49,821 nt of DNA from Candidatus Woesebacteria bacterium. GTDB lineage: Bacteria; Patescibacteriota; Microgenomatia; Woykebacterales; 2-01-FULL-43-14. Shown here piece by piece: positions 7,325 through 16,877 of the stretch (its first letter is position 1; the number at the start of each line of letters is the position of its first letter). Location: contig JAGVAV010000019.1 of NCBI GenBank assembly GCA_020060105.1, positions 1 through 49,821 of the forward strand, given 5' to 3'. The notes beneath the pieces were generated by a model, which made no database searches, was not told the origin of the DNA, and worked only from the letters and a program-made list of their open reading frames with translations. Made by a program: the position numbers and the translations under genes.

Positions 7325-8848
7325 ATGCTAGCCAAAGTAATTTCTGGAGCTGTCGTTGGTTTAAACTCGGTCCCGATCGAAGTAGAAATCGATATTGCCT
7401 CCCACGGGTTGCCTTCTTTCACTATTGTTGGCTTACCCGATAAAGCGGTTGAAGAAGCCAAAGAACGGGTCCGCTCGGCTCTGCGCAACACCGGCGCCGA
7501 TTTTCCGTCCAAAAGAATTACCGTTAATCTCGCTCCCGCGGATTTGCCGAAAGAAGGACCCGCTTATGATCTGCCGATTGCTTTAGGTCTGCTGGTGGCC
7601 TCCGGCCAACTGCAGGCCGATCTTTCCCAGACTTTAGTTCTTGGAGAACTTTCCCTTGACGGTTCCCTTCGCCACACCGCCGCGGTCTTGCCGCTTATTC
7701 TTCTGGCTAAGGAGAGGGGTTTCCAAAAGGTCTTTTTACCTCACCTAAATGCCTCAGAAGCGGCAATTGTTGAAGGAGTGGAAATTTACCCAGTCGAAAA
7801 TTTGTCTCAACTGTTTCATCACTTGAATCAGTCAAAACCGATCAGCCCCCACCCTTTAGTTAAATTGGATTTTAATTTTGTCCAAGGCTATGAGTTTGAC
7901 ATGAAAGACATTCGAGGCCAAGAGCATGCCAAAAGAGCTTTGGAAGTTTGCGCGGCGGGAGGCCATAACATTCTTTTAAAGGGCCCTCCAGGGGCAGGGA
8001 AGACCCTTTTGGCGAGAACTTTACCTTCAATTCTTCCTAGGCTGGTTTTTGAAGAAGCTTTAGAGGTGAGTAAAATTTATTCGGTTATTGGCCAGCTACA
8101 CCGAGAAGAACCGGTTATTAAACTTCGTCCCTTTAGATCCCCTCATCACACTACTAGCGCGGTGGGGCTGATTGGCGGCGGGACTCACCCAAAACCCGGC
8201 GAAATCTCTCTGGCCCACCGGGGGGTTCTTTTTTTGGATGAATTTCCGGAATTTTCCCGCCCCATCTTAGAAGCCTTGCGTCAGCCTCTTGAAGATGGTT
8301 ATGTTTCGGTTAGCCGGGCTCAAGGAACTGTTAACTTTCCAACCAAGTTTATTTTAGTAGCCGCCGCCAATCCCTGCCCTTGCGGTTATCTGGGTAGCGG
8401 GGACAAGAACTGTTTTTGCCCTCCCGCCCAGATTATCCGTTATCAAAAAAGAATTTCCGGGCCGATTTTAGATCGAATTGACTTGCACGTAGAGGTTCCG
8501 GCGGTGAAGATGGAAAAGCTAACTTCCGAAGGGATGGAGGCTGCCGAAAGTTCTGATTTGATTCGAGAGCGGGTCCAAAAAGCGCGGGACCGTCAGACGA
8601 AAAGATTCGCCCAAGACGGGATTACTTGCAACGCGGAAATGCGCAGCAAAGAAGTGAAGGAATATTGCCAGTTGGATAGCCGATCCTTAGAGATAATCAA
8701 GACAGCGATTACCCAGATGCGTTTATCTGCTCGAAGCTACTTCCGAGTCCTGAAGGTCGCTCGGACAATTGCCGATTTGGCCGAAGAGGAAAAAATTCAA
8801 CCCAATCACTTGGCAGAAGCCCTTCAATATCGGGCGAAGGAAAATTAG
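7325..8848 (+). CDS. comM: YifB/ComM family Mg chelatase-like AAA ATPase
   Basis: GLPDKAVEEAKERVRSALRN, GPPGAGKTLLARTLPSILP, FRSPHHTTSAVGLIGGG, AANPCPCGYLG. Confidence 0.95.
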   Translation: MLAKVISGAVVGLNSVPIEVEIDIASHGLPSFTIVGLPDKAVEEAKERVRSALRNTGADFPSKRITVNLAPADLPKEGPAYDLPIALGLLVASGQLQADLSQTLVLGELSLDGSLRHTAAVLPLILLAKERGFQKVFLPHLNASEAAIVEGVEIYPVENLSQLFHHLNQSKPISPHPLVKLDFNFVQGYEFDMKDIRGQEHAKRALEVCAAGGHNILLKGPPGAGKTLLARTLPSILPRLVFEEALEVSKIYSVIGQLHREEPVIKLRPFRSPHHTTSAVGLIGGGTHPKPGEISLAHRGVLFLDEFPEFSRPILEALRQPLEDGYVSVSRAQGTVNFPTKFILVAAANPCPCGYLGSGDKNCFCPPAQIIRYQKRISGPILDRIDLHVEVPAVKMEKLTSEGMEAAESSDLIRERVQKARDRQTKRFAQDGITCNAEMRSKEVKEYCQLDSRSLEIIKTAITQMRLSARSYFRVLKVARTIADLAEEEKIQPNHLAEALQYRAKEN

Positions 8849-12091: not shown

Positions 12092-12667
12092 ATGTTGACC
12101 GATTTGTTTTTATCAAAAACTAGGGTAAAGCTGCTCCAAACTTTTCTCTTTCCACCAGGAAAAATTTATTACGTTCGGGAATTGGTTCGGTTGGTTAAGG
12201 AAGAAATAAATGCCGTTCGGGCGGAACTGGCCAGGATGGAAAAACTGGGCATGGTCGATTCCGAAATGCGGGCTAACCGTAAGTACTACAGCTTTCGGAA
12301 AGATTACCTTTTTTACGATGAGCTGCTTCGATTGGTGGCCAAAACAACCGGTTTGGGCGGAAGCATTATTAAAGAAAAAATGAAGTTGGGAAAAGTTAAA
12401 TTTGCCATGCTTTCTGGGACTTTTTTCCGGGGGCGGTCGGTGGGGCCAAAGGATGTTGATCTTTTGTTAGTGGGAACAATCGTCTTGCCTCAGTTGTCCC
12501 AAATGGTTCGAAGCGCGGAAACAAAAATCGGTCGGGAGATAAACTATACCGTGATGACTGAGGAAGAATTTAATTTCCGCAAACGCCGCAACGACCCTTT
12601 CATCTTAAGCGTTTTGAATAAAAGCAAGCTGATGTTGATTGGGGATGAGGAAGAACTGCTCAAATAA
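12092..12667 (+). CDS. Winged-helix DNA-binding protein fused to a nucleotidyltransferase-like domain
   Basis: LFLSKTRVKLLQTFLFPPGKIYYVRELVRLV (wHTH) and LSGTFFRGRSVGPKDVDLLLVG (NTase-like). Confidence 0.7.
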   Translation: MLTDLFLSKTRVKLLQTFLFPPGKIYYVRELVRLVKEEINAVRAELARMEKLGMVDSEMRANRKYYSFRKDYLFYDELLRLVAKTTGLGGSIIKEKMKLGKVKFAMLSGTFFRGRSVGPKDVDLLLVGTIVLPQLSQMVRSAETKIGREINYTVMTEEEFNFRKRRNDPFILSVLNKSKLMLIGDEEELLK

Positions 12668-12759: not shown

Positions 12760-13689
12760 ATGAAACTGATTCGTTATACAGGTAACCCAATTTTAACCCC
12801 TACCTCTAATTGGTGGGAAACTGCCGCCACTTTTAACCCCGGGGCAACTATTTATCAGGGAAAGGTGGTTTTGCTTTACCGGGCGATCGGCGGAGACGGC
12901 CTGTCTCGCTTTGGTTTGGCTGAAAGCGGGGACGGGTTTAATTTTCAAAGGTTTGAGGATCCGGTGCTTGAGGGGGAGCTAACGAACCCTTACGAGCGAC
13001 TGGGGGTTGAAGATCCTCGGATTGTTCAAATAGAAGAGACTTACTATATTACCTTTACCGCGGCTTCTGTTTACGAGGCTTGGGTTTACCAGCAGCAAAA
13101 ACACGCTCCTTCTTTGAGTCACCATGCTCCTTGGCGAATTCGCCCCACTCTAGTGACGACTAAGGATTTTAAAGCCTTTAAAAGGCAAGGCATCTTGCTG
13201 GAAACCGATACCAAAAATGCCACTCTTTTTCCCGAAAAGATTTCTGGCCAGTACTGCCTAGTTCATCGGATTTATCCAAACATGTACTTGACTTTCTCAC
13301 CGGCCCTAAAGGACTGGCGGGTAGGCCAAATCTTGATTAGTCCAAGAGAAGGATTTTGGGATAGTGAAAGAGTGGGGTTGGGAGCTCAGCCGATAAAGAC
13401 CGAGAAAGGCTGGTTGTTGTTTTATCACGGAACAAATAAAGACCGGGTTTATCGGCTAGGTCTTTTACTACTGGACCTGAAAGATCCGGCGAAGGTTCTT
13501 TATCGCAGCGACAGGCCAATTCTAGAGCCTCAGGAAACATATGAAAAAGAAGGCCTGACCCCAAATGTCGTTTTTACTTGCGGAGCGGTAGAAAAAGATG
13601 GGCAATATCTGGTTTATTACGGGGCGGCGGACAAAGTCATTGGCTTGGCCACGATTGGTAAAGAAAAGCTTTTAGCCTATCTCCCCTAG
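12760..13689 (+). CDS. Glycoside hydrolase family 130-like protein (beta-mannoside phosphorylase-type)
   Basis: GNPILTPTSNWWETAATFNPGA, LLYRAIGGDGLSRFGLAES, GVEDPRIV, LFYHGTNKDRVYRLG, YYGAADKVIGLA. Confidence 0.9.
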   Translation: MKLIRYTGNPILTPTSNWWETAATFNPGATIYQGKVVLLYRAIGGDGLSRFGLAESGDGFNFQRFEDPVLEGELTNPYERLGVEDPRIVQIEETYYITFTAASVYEAWVYQQQKHAPSLSHHAPWRIRPTLVTTKDFKAFKRQGILLETDTKNATLFPEKISGQYCLVHRIYPNMYLTFSPALKDWRVGQILISPREGFWDSERVGLGAQPIKTEKGWLLFYHGTNKDRVYRLGLLLLDLKDPAKVLYRSDRPILEPQETYEKEGLTPNVVFTCGAVEKDGQYLVYYGAADKVIGLATIGKEKLLAYLP

Positions 13690-13846
13690 ATATTTTCCCT
13701 GATCAACTTGCATTTACTAACTTTGAAATTATTGTCGGGGCGTATTGCCATACGTCCTACTGTCTTGACAACTCATAGCTTGTTTTCTTATGATAAATTC
13801 TAATCTGGCGCCCAAGAGGCGCTAATTTCGTAAGGAGGAGAGAGCA

Positions 13847-14644
13847 GTGGTAGATGTAATTGATATCTTCGATTACGTTGTGCCTTTCACGGTCAAGAAG
13901 ATGTCGGAGGAAGATTGTTGCCGGTTGATACTGGAGGCAGATCAGTTCGACATCGTGGACGTGTCTGCCGGAGAAGAACCCTTTGAGTACAGCGCTAGCA
14001 CCCCTACAGCCCCTTTTTATGGGCCGGGATATCTTGTCTTGAAGGCGGTGGTCGGTCAGGCGCCGATCTTTTTTCCCTTGGTTAACCAAATGGCTCTCAA
14101 GATCGCCGAAATTGACCCGCCTTTTCAGGTGATCTGTGGCAACGTTTCTGGGGGAATGACTCCGGCTTTTCTCCTGACCTTGTACCTTCACAAGCTTTAT
14201 GGGGAAAGGCCAATTTACATTTACGCTCGAGAGATGCGTAAACAACACGGCTCTAAAGAGATGCTGGTAGGATTTGAAAGGAATCCAGGCATCAAACCGG
14301 GGATGATTGCTCTGGACTTTGAAGAGTTGGTCAACCGGGCCAACACCACTTGTCACGCTGCCTTAACCTTAAGAGCAAGTGGATTGGCCTGCGATTTTGC
14401 TGCAACTTTGCTTGATTACCGGAATCCTCAAGCGATCAAACAAAGGAGGGAAATTGGGTTAAATCAAGTGAGTCTGACCACTTTACCCGTTCTTCTTGAC
14501 GTCGCTGAATCCATCGGTCGGTTTTCAAGAAGAGTGATTGAAGACTACCGAAGGTTCTTGGCCGATCCTGGCCAATGGCAGGCCGATAACGCTGGGGTAA
14601 TTGCGAAAGCAGTCGCCCGCAAAAACGCGGGAAAGAGTTCCTGA
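13847..14644 (+). CDS. Orotate phosphoribosyltransferase-like (type I PRTase fold), divergent
   Basis: GTG start after TAAGGAGGAGAG; VICGNVSGGMTPAFLLTLYL...IYIYAREMRKQHGSKEMLVGFERNPGIKPGMIALDFEELVNRANTT resembles the OPRT core; PRPP loop atypical. Confidence 0.6.
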   Translation: MVDVIDIFDYVVPFTVKKMSEEDCCRLILEADQFDIVDVSAGEEPFEYSASTPTAPFYGPGYLVLKAVVGQAPIFFPLVNQMALKIAEIDPPFQVICGNVSGGMTPAFLLTLYLHKLYGERPIYIYAREMRKQHGSKEMLVGFERNPGIKPGMIALDFEELVNRANTTCHAALTLRASGLACDFAATLLDYRNPQAIKQRREIGLNQVSLTTLPVLLDVAESIGRFSRRVIEDYRRFLADPGQWQADNAGVIAKAVARKNAGKSS

Positions 14645-14653
14645 AAGGAGAAA

Positions 14654-15400
14654 GTGATGCAAGTTCAACTCTTAAGGCCCGATGGAACGATGGAAACTTT
14701 TAACCGACCGTTACTTTGTCCGGCGTTGGACCTTCAGACCCTTGATGGCAACCTTCGGTTGGCTGAGGAAATTGCCGATCTTGCAGATGCCTTCAAGGTA
14801 AATGATGATGCAGTGGATGACGCGGGATTGGAGGCGTTAGTCAAGCCATTTGGGCAGTTTGGTCGCCCGATCTTCGTGGACATGAAGATGCTCAAGGGAA
14901 GCCGGACGATGAAGGAGCGGGCACAGGGGGCGGTAAGGCTTAACGTTGCCCTGATCAACGCCTTCGCTTTGGCTGATAAGCTTCTAGCGAAAACGACAGA
15001 GTTTCTGAAGGGTAAAGGGACCCGCCTTTTGGCCGTAACTGTTCTTACTCACCACGACGAGAATTACTGCCAAGAGTACTTCCGCCGCTCTGTCGAGGAA
15101 TCAGTCCGTTTCTTCTCTCAGAAGGCGCTCGATTTTGGCTGCGATGGTTTTATCCTGCCGGCGCCAACACTTCCCGCCGTCAAGGACTTCGATGGGATCA
15201 AAGGTACGCCGGCAATTCGACCGGTATGGTCGCAGAGGGATGCAAACGATCAAGAGCTGACTGCTACTCCTGCCGAAGCCGTTCGAATGGGCTCTAACAT
15301 CTTGATCGCCGGAAGCCCAATCGCCAAGGCACCGAATCGACGGGAGTCGGTGCTGAGATTCCTTGAGGAGATGGACAATGCTTGGGCGAAGGTAGGCTGA
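14654..15400 (+). CDS. Orotidine-5'-phosphate decarboxylase-like protein, divergent
   Basis: LCPALDLQTLDGNLRLAEEIADLADAFKVND, IFVDMKMLKGSRTM, FGCDGFILP, GTPAIRPVWSQRDANDQELTATPAEAVRMGSNILIAGSPIAKAPNRRE. Confidence 0.7.
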   Translation: MMQVQLLRPDGTMETFNRPLLCPALDLQTLDGNLRLAEEIADLADAFKVNDDAVDDAGLEALVKPFGQFGRPIFVDMKMLKGSRTMKERAQGAVRLNVALINAFALADKLLAKTTEFLKGKGTRLLAVTVLTHHDENYCQEYFRRSVEESVRFFSQKALDFGCDGFILPAPTLPAVKDFDGIKGTPAIRPVWSQRDANDQELTATPAEAVRMGSNILIAGSPIAKAPNRRESVLRFLEEMDNAWAKVG

Positions 15401-15930
15401 CTTTGTCAGCGGTTTTCGACGAGATCCCTGATTACCTAAGACTTGCCTGGGAGGCTCACCAGGTTTCTCCCAGGCAAGAGAGTGTTCGGACTAGACGACA
15501 CGATGTTCTAACACCATACTTCGTTCACCCTCAGTGGGCGTCAGCAACGGTTATGCAGGAGTGGCGGCTGCCAATAGAACTGCGTTGGATTGGCTGGAGG
15601 GTGTTGTTGCTTCACGATGTGTTAGAGGACACCACTTACCCTCTTCCTAACTGGGTGCCAGAGGAGGTGTTGAGTTTGGTGAAAGCAATGAGCTTTGAGA
15701 ACTCTCTGGCTGAGCGGGAAGAAGTGTGGGAGAGACCTCCAATCATCTGGCTCCTTAAGGCTTACGATAAAGCCTCAAACCTAATGGATGGTAGTTGGAT
15801 GGACTCACGTCCGCCCGAGTACCGGCAAAGCTATAGGCAGTTTGCCTTAGAATTGGCGGCCAGAGTAAAAGAAAGGTACGGTGATCTTAACATCGTGCGA
15901 ATTATCCATGCTCTCTGCCAACTAACTTAA
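15382..15930 (+). CDS. SpoT/MESH1-like HD-domain hydrolase
   Basis: PYFVHPQWASATVM, VLLLHDVLEDTTYP and LKAYDKASNLMD match the His / His-Asp / Asp metal ligands of (p)ppGpp hydrolase-type HD domains. Confidence 0.75.
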   Translation: MGEGRLTLSAVFDEIPDYLRLAWEAHQVSPRQESVRTRRHDVLTPYFVHPQWASATVMQEWRLPIELRWIGWRVLLLHDVLEDTTYPLPNWVPEEVLSLVKAMSFENSLAEREEVWERPPIIWLLKAYDKASNLMDGSWMDSRPPEYRQSYRQFALELAARVKERYGDLNIVRIIHALCQLT

Positions 15931-15940
15931 GCGAAGGTTC

Positions 15941-15988
15941 GCCCGCGAGGTTGATTTGCCACACAAGTCAACAGCGCGGGCTTTTTCT
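15941..15988 (+). terminator. Intrinsic terminator of the PRTase/OMPDC/HD cassette
   Basis: GCCCGCG-ag-GTTGATTT-gccacac-AAGTCAAC-ag-CGCGGGC-TTTTT long hairpin with U tract. Confidence 0.82.
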
Positions 15989-16028: not shown

Positions 16029-16877
16029 ATGGATAAGGTAAAACAAAAACTGATTTTTCTTAAGTTTTGGTTAAGGGAAAGATGGGGCTCTTTTAGAATT
16101 TCCCGACCGCTCATTTCCCTGCCGACTTTGCCTGATTCTTTTTTTACCCAAAGAAACGCCATTATTTACGGAGCGGCGATATTTGTTTTAGTCAATTTAG
16201 GCTGGTTTTTATTCTTTATCTTTTCCTTTTCCCCGAAACAAAGCGAGACTGAAACAACTTCTTCCTTAGAAAAAGTAGAAGATGTTTCTCTGCCGCCTCT
16301 TCCCTTTTCTCCTCAGCAGGTAAGCTTGACTCCGATCGAGAGCGGTCATATGGTCAAGTGGTTAGGGACGGGGGAGGAAGGGAAGTATTACCAAGTTTAT
16401 CGTAAAGCCCCAAAAGATGAGGGCTGGACCTTTTTAACCACCGTTGATTTGAAAGGGAATAATCAGGGTTGGTATGAGTACGAGGACTCCTCGGGTGAGG
16501 GTAGCTTTATCTACGGGGTTTCGATGGTTGACAACTATGAAAGAGAAAGCGAACTTTCCCAGACGAGCAGTCAGCAAACTGATTTCATCAGCTCCGAGGC
16601 GGCCCTAAAAGACTTGGAAGAATTACCGGAAGGGTTGTTATATGAGGGTTCTTTGGCCGGAAATGTTTCTTTTATCCCCTTGATTGAGCCGGGTGAAAAA
16701 AAACCTTACTGGGGTTTTAAGGTAGTTGATGAGGAAGCGGCTCGGATCAAAACAGGTTCCGGCCACCTAAACTGGGCTTACGTGGACGCGCGAAGTGGTG
16801 AATTTATTTGCGCCGACACTGAATTTGGTTTGGTTAACGACTCTTGTTGGAGCAAGCTGGAAAATTTAGACAAATAA
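16029..16877 (+). CDS. Membrane-anchored protein with FnIII-like extracellular region
   Basis: TM segment AAIFVLVNLGWFLFFIFSF, then MVKWLGTGEEGKYYQVYRKAPKDEGWTFLTTV...YEYEDSSGEGSFIYGVSMVDNYERES. Confidence 0.6.
   Translation: MDKVKQKLIFLKFWLRERWGSFRISRPLISLPTLPDSFFTQRNAIIYGAAIFVLVNLGWFLFFIFSFSPKQSETETTSSLEKVEDVSLPPLPFSPQQVSLTPIESGHMVKWLGTGEEGKYYQVYRKAPKDEGWTFLTTVDLKGNNQGWYEYEDSSGEGSFIYGVSMVDNYERESELSQTSSQQTDFISSEAALKDLEELPEGLLYEGSLAGNVSFIPLIEPGEKKPYWGFKVVDEEAARIKTGSGHLNWAYVDARSGEFICADTEFGLVNDSCWSKLENLDK

Follow-up and report, generated by a model that had tools for sequence, protein, structure and literature searches.

A trio of OPRT-like, OMPDC-like and alarmone-hydrolase-fold genes recurs in CPR bacteria and DPANN archaea and probably encodes an uncharacterised nucleotide pathway

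Introduction

The active site of OMPDC, a textbook enzyme, is regarded as universal, and the enzyme is among the most proficient known. The suprafamily to which it gives its name is catalytically diverse. In the UMP synthase module, OPRT (PyrE; e.g., 4ohc from Burkholderia cenocepacia) acts with OMPDC (PyrF; e.g., 3ru6), and eukaryotic UMPS has the two in OPRT-then-OMPDC order. Canonical pairs of CPR genomes (e.g., L005) are adjacent genes with OMPDC first; these keep DIPNT and GRPI and have an ordinary PRPP loop. In human OMPDC, the ribose 2'-OH is contacted across the subunit interface by the third Asp of the active-site motif (Asp317'), and Arg451 holds the 5'-phosphate (PMC12631982).

Small alarmone hydrolases (SAHs; MESH1/HDDC3, PaSAH 6yvc, RelH 7qod) consist of a single HD domain of ~180 amino acids. 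They remove 3'-pyrophosphates and 2'- or 3'-phosphates, with ppGpp, ppApp, and NADPH as substrates (PMC9765508). CoA is given as a further substrate (PMC13221220).

Here, we describe an operon that places relatives of all three enzymes side by side in a 49,821-nucleotide contig of a Candidatus Woesebacteria genome (hereafter, the window). CPR and DPANN symbionts often lack nucleotide synthesis, and the operon bears on how they get their pyrimidines, as well as on gene traffic between them. A clade in which three OMPDC residues are replaced, with an altered OPRT and a hydrolase, would represent either a natural re-engineering or a new nucleotide pathway. Our search of the open-access literature returned no description of this gene set; subscription papers may differ.

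Results and Discussion

A self-contained operon of three enzyme genes

The host genome (CPR, Patescibacteria) is 1.09 Mb and 97.9% complete. The operon is self-contained, with a promoter-like site, a strong Shine-Dalgarno sequence (SD), three coupled genes, and a strong terminator. The sigma-70-type site, TTGACA-18-TATGAT (13765..13794, + strand), has 11 of 12 consensus matches but is a consensus match only; such sites are no commoner in the region than in shuffles. The SD, AAGGAGGAG (13833..13841, +), precedes the GTG start of the OPRT-like gene (13847..14644, +; 265 amino acids). The OMPDC-like TIM-barrel gene (14657..15400, +) has its own SD and encodes 247 amino acids from ATG 14657, with GTG 14654 as a possible alternative. 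For the HD hydrolase gene (15403..15930, +), TTG 15403 is the likelier start and TTG 15382 a possible one, and the start overlaps or abuts the OMPDC-like stop codon. An intrinsic terminator (15941..15987, +) follows, in which a 16-bp interrupted stem (minimum free energy −33.7 kcal/mol, z = −5.27) leads into the U-run TTTTTCTT. The layout agrees with the original prediction of a cassette of adjacent or overlapping genes with a strong SD and a terminator. An Rfam search gave nothing usable. A GH130 mannoside phosphorylase gene (12760-13689) flanks the operon on the promoter side and a gene without family assignment (16029-16877) on the terminator side; HTH and nucleotidyltransferase (MNT-like) genes lie nearby (12092-12667).

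The OPRT-like, OMPDC-like, and SpoT/MESH1-like calls originally made from motifs were right at the fold level. The first protein has a PRTase fold closest to OPRT. The Pfam PRTase model misses it, and it does not reach the NCBIfam pyrE equivalog cut-off (TIGR00336, 20.4 versus 106.8 bits); however, a profile of 15 family members matches OPRTs in the PDB (best 4ohc, E = 2.5e-22), and Foldseek with the AlphaFold model (pLDDT 90) gives 4ohc as the best PDB structure (E = 1.2e-16). The second protein matches PF00215 (E = 2e-26, 93.7 bits versus a cut-off of 27) but not the NCBIfam pyrF models at their cut-offs (TIGR01740, 84.8 versus 92.3 bits; NF001273, 100.6 versus 193).

As modelled, the HD protein is a single-domain protein whose nearest solved structures are SAHs (MESH1, PaSAH). 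It has no Pfam match above cut-off and is only ~20% identical to known SAHs, with TM scores of 0.6-0.7. A five-member profile places MESH1 (3nr1) first (E = 1e-7), and SAHs occupy Foldseek ranks 1-19 for the predicted model (pLDDT 86; 5vxa, TM 0.69; 6yvc, TM up to 0.72). All HD-box residues are kept: H49, H78-D79, E82-D83, D129, and N133 (numbered from 15382) are invariant in the five homologues, and this H..HD..ED..D..N series aligns to that of MESH1. Unlike the described SAHs, the gene sits in a pyrimidine-type operon without a known synthetase partner, and support for an alarmone role goes no further than the predicted fold. The salvage, detoxification, and alarmone roles first suggested for the operon cannot be told apart by sequence.

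The trio is rare but recurs in two domains

Single-protein pattern scans found no relatives, whereas the OPRT-like family profile did, at 15 loci over GTDB species. These belong to CPR lineages and to Woesearchaeota, Pacearchaeota, and Aenigmatarchaeota, and most of the comparison genomes are MAGs. Around twelve genomes from CPR and DPANN carry the OPRT/OMPDC-like pair (loci L033/L044, L003/L049, L004/L058, L045-L048, L050, L052, L053, and L056). In nearly all loci the OMPDC-like gene lies 3' of the OPRT-like gene, and stop and start usually overlap. Among 380 Patescibacteria genomes searched at the protein level, three have the pair (the host genome, G224, and G308); canonical OMPDCs were found besides.

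An HD gene stands beside the pair in five genomes (the window, L033/L044, L050, L051, and L052), and a remnant does so in a sixth (L045). The trio is therefore intact in four genomes besides the host, from both CPR and DPANN. Gene orders at the trio are of four kinds: HD downstream on the same strand (window and L033, the latter from G385, a genome of the host's own taxonomic order in which a search of relatives found the trio complete); downstream and convergent (L052; also L050, where MNT-HEPN genes intervene as a pair at 7461-8493); upstream and divergent (L051); and a truncated upstream remnant (L045). The HD family occurs in 2 of 371 DPANN genomes (the phylum of L050), each time beside the pair. 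Chance would hardly keep these genes together through such rearrangement and across two domains. Most genomes with the pair have no adjacent HD gene, so the HD gene is not obligatory. The conservation of gene neighbourhood that had been looked for across CPR was upheld in that the trio recurs, in CPR and DPANN alike, but the trio is rare and is not a general CPR trait. Because the same set recurs in such distant bacteria and archaea, the trio is probably an uncharacterised nucleotide pathway.

Both partners have rebuilt active sites

The OMPDC-like proteins (12 rows) and the OPRT-like proteins (16 sequences) each form a clade with 100/100 support, apart from canonical OMPDC and OPRT. With the UMP synthase module they share the folds, the gene order of eukaryotic UMPS, the acidic pair of the PRPP site, and the catalytic Lys/Asp/Lys of OMPDC (K47, D75, and K77; the equivalents of K59/D91/K93 are invariant). 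However, three OMPDC residues described in the literature as conserved are replaced (PMC12631982). In place of DXKXXD, all 12 OMPDC-like members have DXKxx[N/K]GxRT, in which Gly, Arg, and Thr never vary. At the position of the pyrimidine-loop Ser (yeast S154, VLTS) all 12 carry His, and at that of the phosphate-gripper Arg (yeast R235, GR[PQ][IV]) all 12 carry Ser. The window protein reads DMKMLKGSRTM, VLTH, and GSPI, as against the canonical DxKxxDIPNT, VLTS, and GRPI. We considered whether the invariant His is the catalytic His of HPS/KGPDC and dropped the idea, as an alignment with UlaD does not put them together. G430 (L059 / L105:6969-7721) encodes a further OMPDC variant, whose motifs are DWKYYDTASV and GSPI and which falls outside the clade.

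The OPRT-like partner has changed too, with both the PRPP loop and the dimer loop replaced. Where OPRTs have the PRPP-binding loop ED..(S/T)TGGS, the clade has EELVNxAxTT. The window protein carries GPGYxxxK, RExRKxxG, and EELVNxAxTT; across the clade (n = 16), the motifs are GPxYxxxK, R-x-x-(R/K)K (L051 excepted), and EEL(V/I)NxAx(T/S)T or near it. Canonical CPR OPRTs (n = 29) instead have xPxYxDxR, VRxxxKxxG, and EDxxSTGxS with few variants. Loop variation alone is no proof of a new substrate, because the Burkholderia OPRT (4ohc) also deviates (EDLTTDSRSK). We do not count the changes at orotate contacts (Lys of KSG, Arg of LDR) as evidence, because these residues are also missing from canonical Gram-positive and CPR OPRTs.

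Loss of the OMP-specific Ser, within a suprafamily of diverse chemistry, would also fit a barrel that acts on a phospho-sugar or other suprafamily substrate (hexulose-phosphate synthase or keto-gulonate-phosphate decarboxylase type) together with a phosphoribosyltransferase. The barrel and DxK core are indeed common to the OMPDC-like protein, UlaD/KGPDC, and HPS. Yet the clade retains a Lys (K47) that is absent from UlaD and is without the third Asp and phosphate Arg still present in UlaD, OMPDC rather than HPS is closest in every search, and the partner is an OPRT homologue. We consider such chemistry quite improbable.

Genomic context points toward orotate

A class-2 PyrD (C36:17860-18747) is encoded in the host genome, as is a PRPP-synthetase-like gene recognised by its motifs. 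In this 97.9% complete assembly, we found no PF02729 or TIGR00857 match for PyrB or PyrC, nor did any further protein reach the OMPDC or OPRT cut-off. No OPRT above the NCBIfam cut-off turned up in any of the 15 genomes with the pair, and just two of these have a second true OMPDC (DxKRxDIG type): G385 and G431, the latter with a frameshift. The lack of such an OPRT in the 15 genomes and of PyrB and PyrC matches in the host, with the loss of three conserved OMPDC residues, bears out the view that this is not a standard pyrimidine operon. Rare co-occurrence, or canonical enzymes within a complete pyr pathway, had been named as grounds against that view; the genes do co-occur elsewhere, and in the host they are not canonical enzymes belonging to a complete pathway.

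The same context gives weight to a more conventional account, which we place close behind our preferred one and regard as a realistic possibility: a rewired but ordinary UMP synthase that takes orotate to OMP and on to UMP. R83 and H132 would stand in for the missing Arg and Ser, PyrD would supply orotate, and the HD enzyme would be an accessory phosphohydrolase or regulator. The pair is often the only candidate for these steps, the catalytic Lys/Asp/Lys is invariant, and PyrD is found in about 10 of the 15 genomes, with PyrD-like genes flanking the trio itself in L051 and L052. Each of the six genomes that have the HD gene, whole or as a remnant, encodes PyrD, versus ~4 of 9 with the pair only (one partial, at a contig end), although these numbers are small. 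ATCase occurs in G308 and G423 (a match in G427 looks like OTCase) and DHOase (PyrC) in G423 and, beside PyrD, in G429; G428 has a PyrC-like fragment close to its trio. In L055 (5268-8646), an OPRT-like gene without an OMPDC-like partner sits amid thymidylate-kinase-like, dCMP-deaminase-family, and Thy1 (ThyX) family genes. This context argues for orotate, or something close to it, as the base.

Against ordinary UMP synthesis stand the three lost residues, with their alternatives fixed, and the lack of PyrB and PyrC matches in the host. Furthermore, G385 carries a second PyrF-PyrE-like pair, so its trio is not simply supplying a missing UMP step. The co-occurrence of PyrD with the pair is only suggestive, as 5 of 10 CPR members have PyrD, which is not significant against the CPR baseline of 73-117 of 380. 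No common peculiarity was seen among the PyrD sequences of pair-carrying genomes.

A candidate neofunctionalised module

Context says orotate-to-UMP, whereas the active site says no ordinary OMPDC; the two facts pull apart. We give slightly more weight to the active site, because three "universal" residues are replaced throughout the clade and the partner OPRT has changed too, and also because the pair is linked to a third enzyme and G385 retains its other PyrF-PyrE-like pair. Our tentative preference is that the operon encodes a neofunctionalised UMP-synthase-like module, the product of which would be processed by an SAH-type hydrolase. The OPRT-like protein would join an orotate-like pyrimidine acid to the phosphoribosyl donor. 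On the resulting nucleotide, the OMPDC-like protein would carry out OMPDC-type chemistry with its retained Lys/Asp/Lys, in a pocket predicted to place Asn/Lys and Arg close to the ribose 2'-OH, to present His from the base loop, and to have Ser instead of the 5'-phosphate Arg. With the pocket rebuilt in this way, the enzyme probably does not act on ordinary OMP bound as usual. The SAH-type enzyme may then hydrolyse a phosphate or pyrophosphate group off a nucleotide that the pair produces or consumes. Several observations count against this preferred reading. The pair is the only OPRT/OMPDC in the host and most other genomes, with PyrD present, which favours plain UMP synthesis; some pair genomes have ATCase or DHOase (G308, G423, and G429); canonical OPRTs such as 4ohc tolerate loop variation; and the pair is mostly without an adjacent HD gene.

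A more specific version, which is speculation and rather unlikely, is that the module makes a pyrimidine nucleotide via 2'- or 3'-phosphorylated intermediates. It is prompted by three features that coincide: the 5'-phosphate Arg has gone, the corner at the ribose 2' position has become positive, and the third enzyme has a fold that removes 2'/3'-phosphates. In the OMPDC-like protein, the subunit-interface loop at the ribose 2'-OH would present Asn/Lys in place of Asp, plus an invariant Arg, and the 5'-phosphate loop of the OPRT-like partner appears to have been rebuilt as well. We know of no pyrimidine route that runs through such intermediates.

Probable lateral transfer and neighbouring genes

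CPR and DPANN members are intermixed in the trees. In several CPR genomes the cassette is much richer in GC than its flanks (0.54-0.56 versus 0.39 in G385, 0.53-0.57 versus 0.36 in L045, and 0.50-0.54 versus 0.44 in the window), whereas in DPANN hosts the two are close. Lateral transfer of the cassette is apparently the natural reading, and GC composition points to it. In L045 (2-1015), a serine recombinase gene adjoins the truncated HD remnant and the pair, which is consistent with mobility. Foreign GC and this recombinase would also suit a laterally transferred accessory nucleotide cassette of a defence or toxin-antitoxin-like kind, in which the SAH-fold enzyme would act as antitoxin or effector, and bacterial SAHs often confer self-resistance against toxic alarmone synthetases (PMC9765508). 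However, PADLOC gave no match, no toxic synthetase is adjacent, and no homologue was found in the viral contigs and phages searched, so that a defence role seems highly unlikely. A phage gene set is likewise unsupported, as the viral contigs, phages, and plasmids searched held no clade members.

Several neighbourhoods have features of their own. In G385, closely similar LysM-protein genes lie upstream of the trio (L033:500-1084) and of the PyrF-PyrE-like pair (L102:1662-2225), possibly because of a shared insertion site or duplication. The Aenigmatarchaeota locus L051 (5336-9605) is a five-gene cluster of HD, duplicated OPRT-like, 127-amino acid protein, OMPDC-like, and PyrD-like genes. Its OPRT-like protein is tandem-duplicated, the first copy lacking the acidic pair; its OMPDC-like protein is more degenerate, and the 127-amino acid protein belongs to no known family. 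In L057 (4291-6447), on a contig labelled Bacteroidetes, a joined ORF of WD40-type and tRNA-synthetase-like parts lies just 5' of the OPRT-like gene; the contig looks chimeric in assembly, which makes the Bacteroidetes assignment doubtful.
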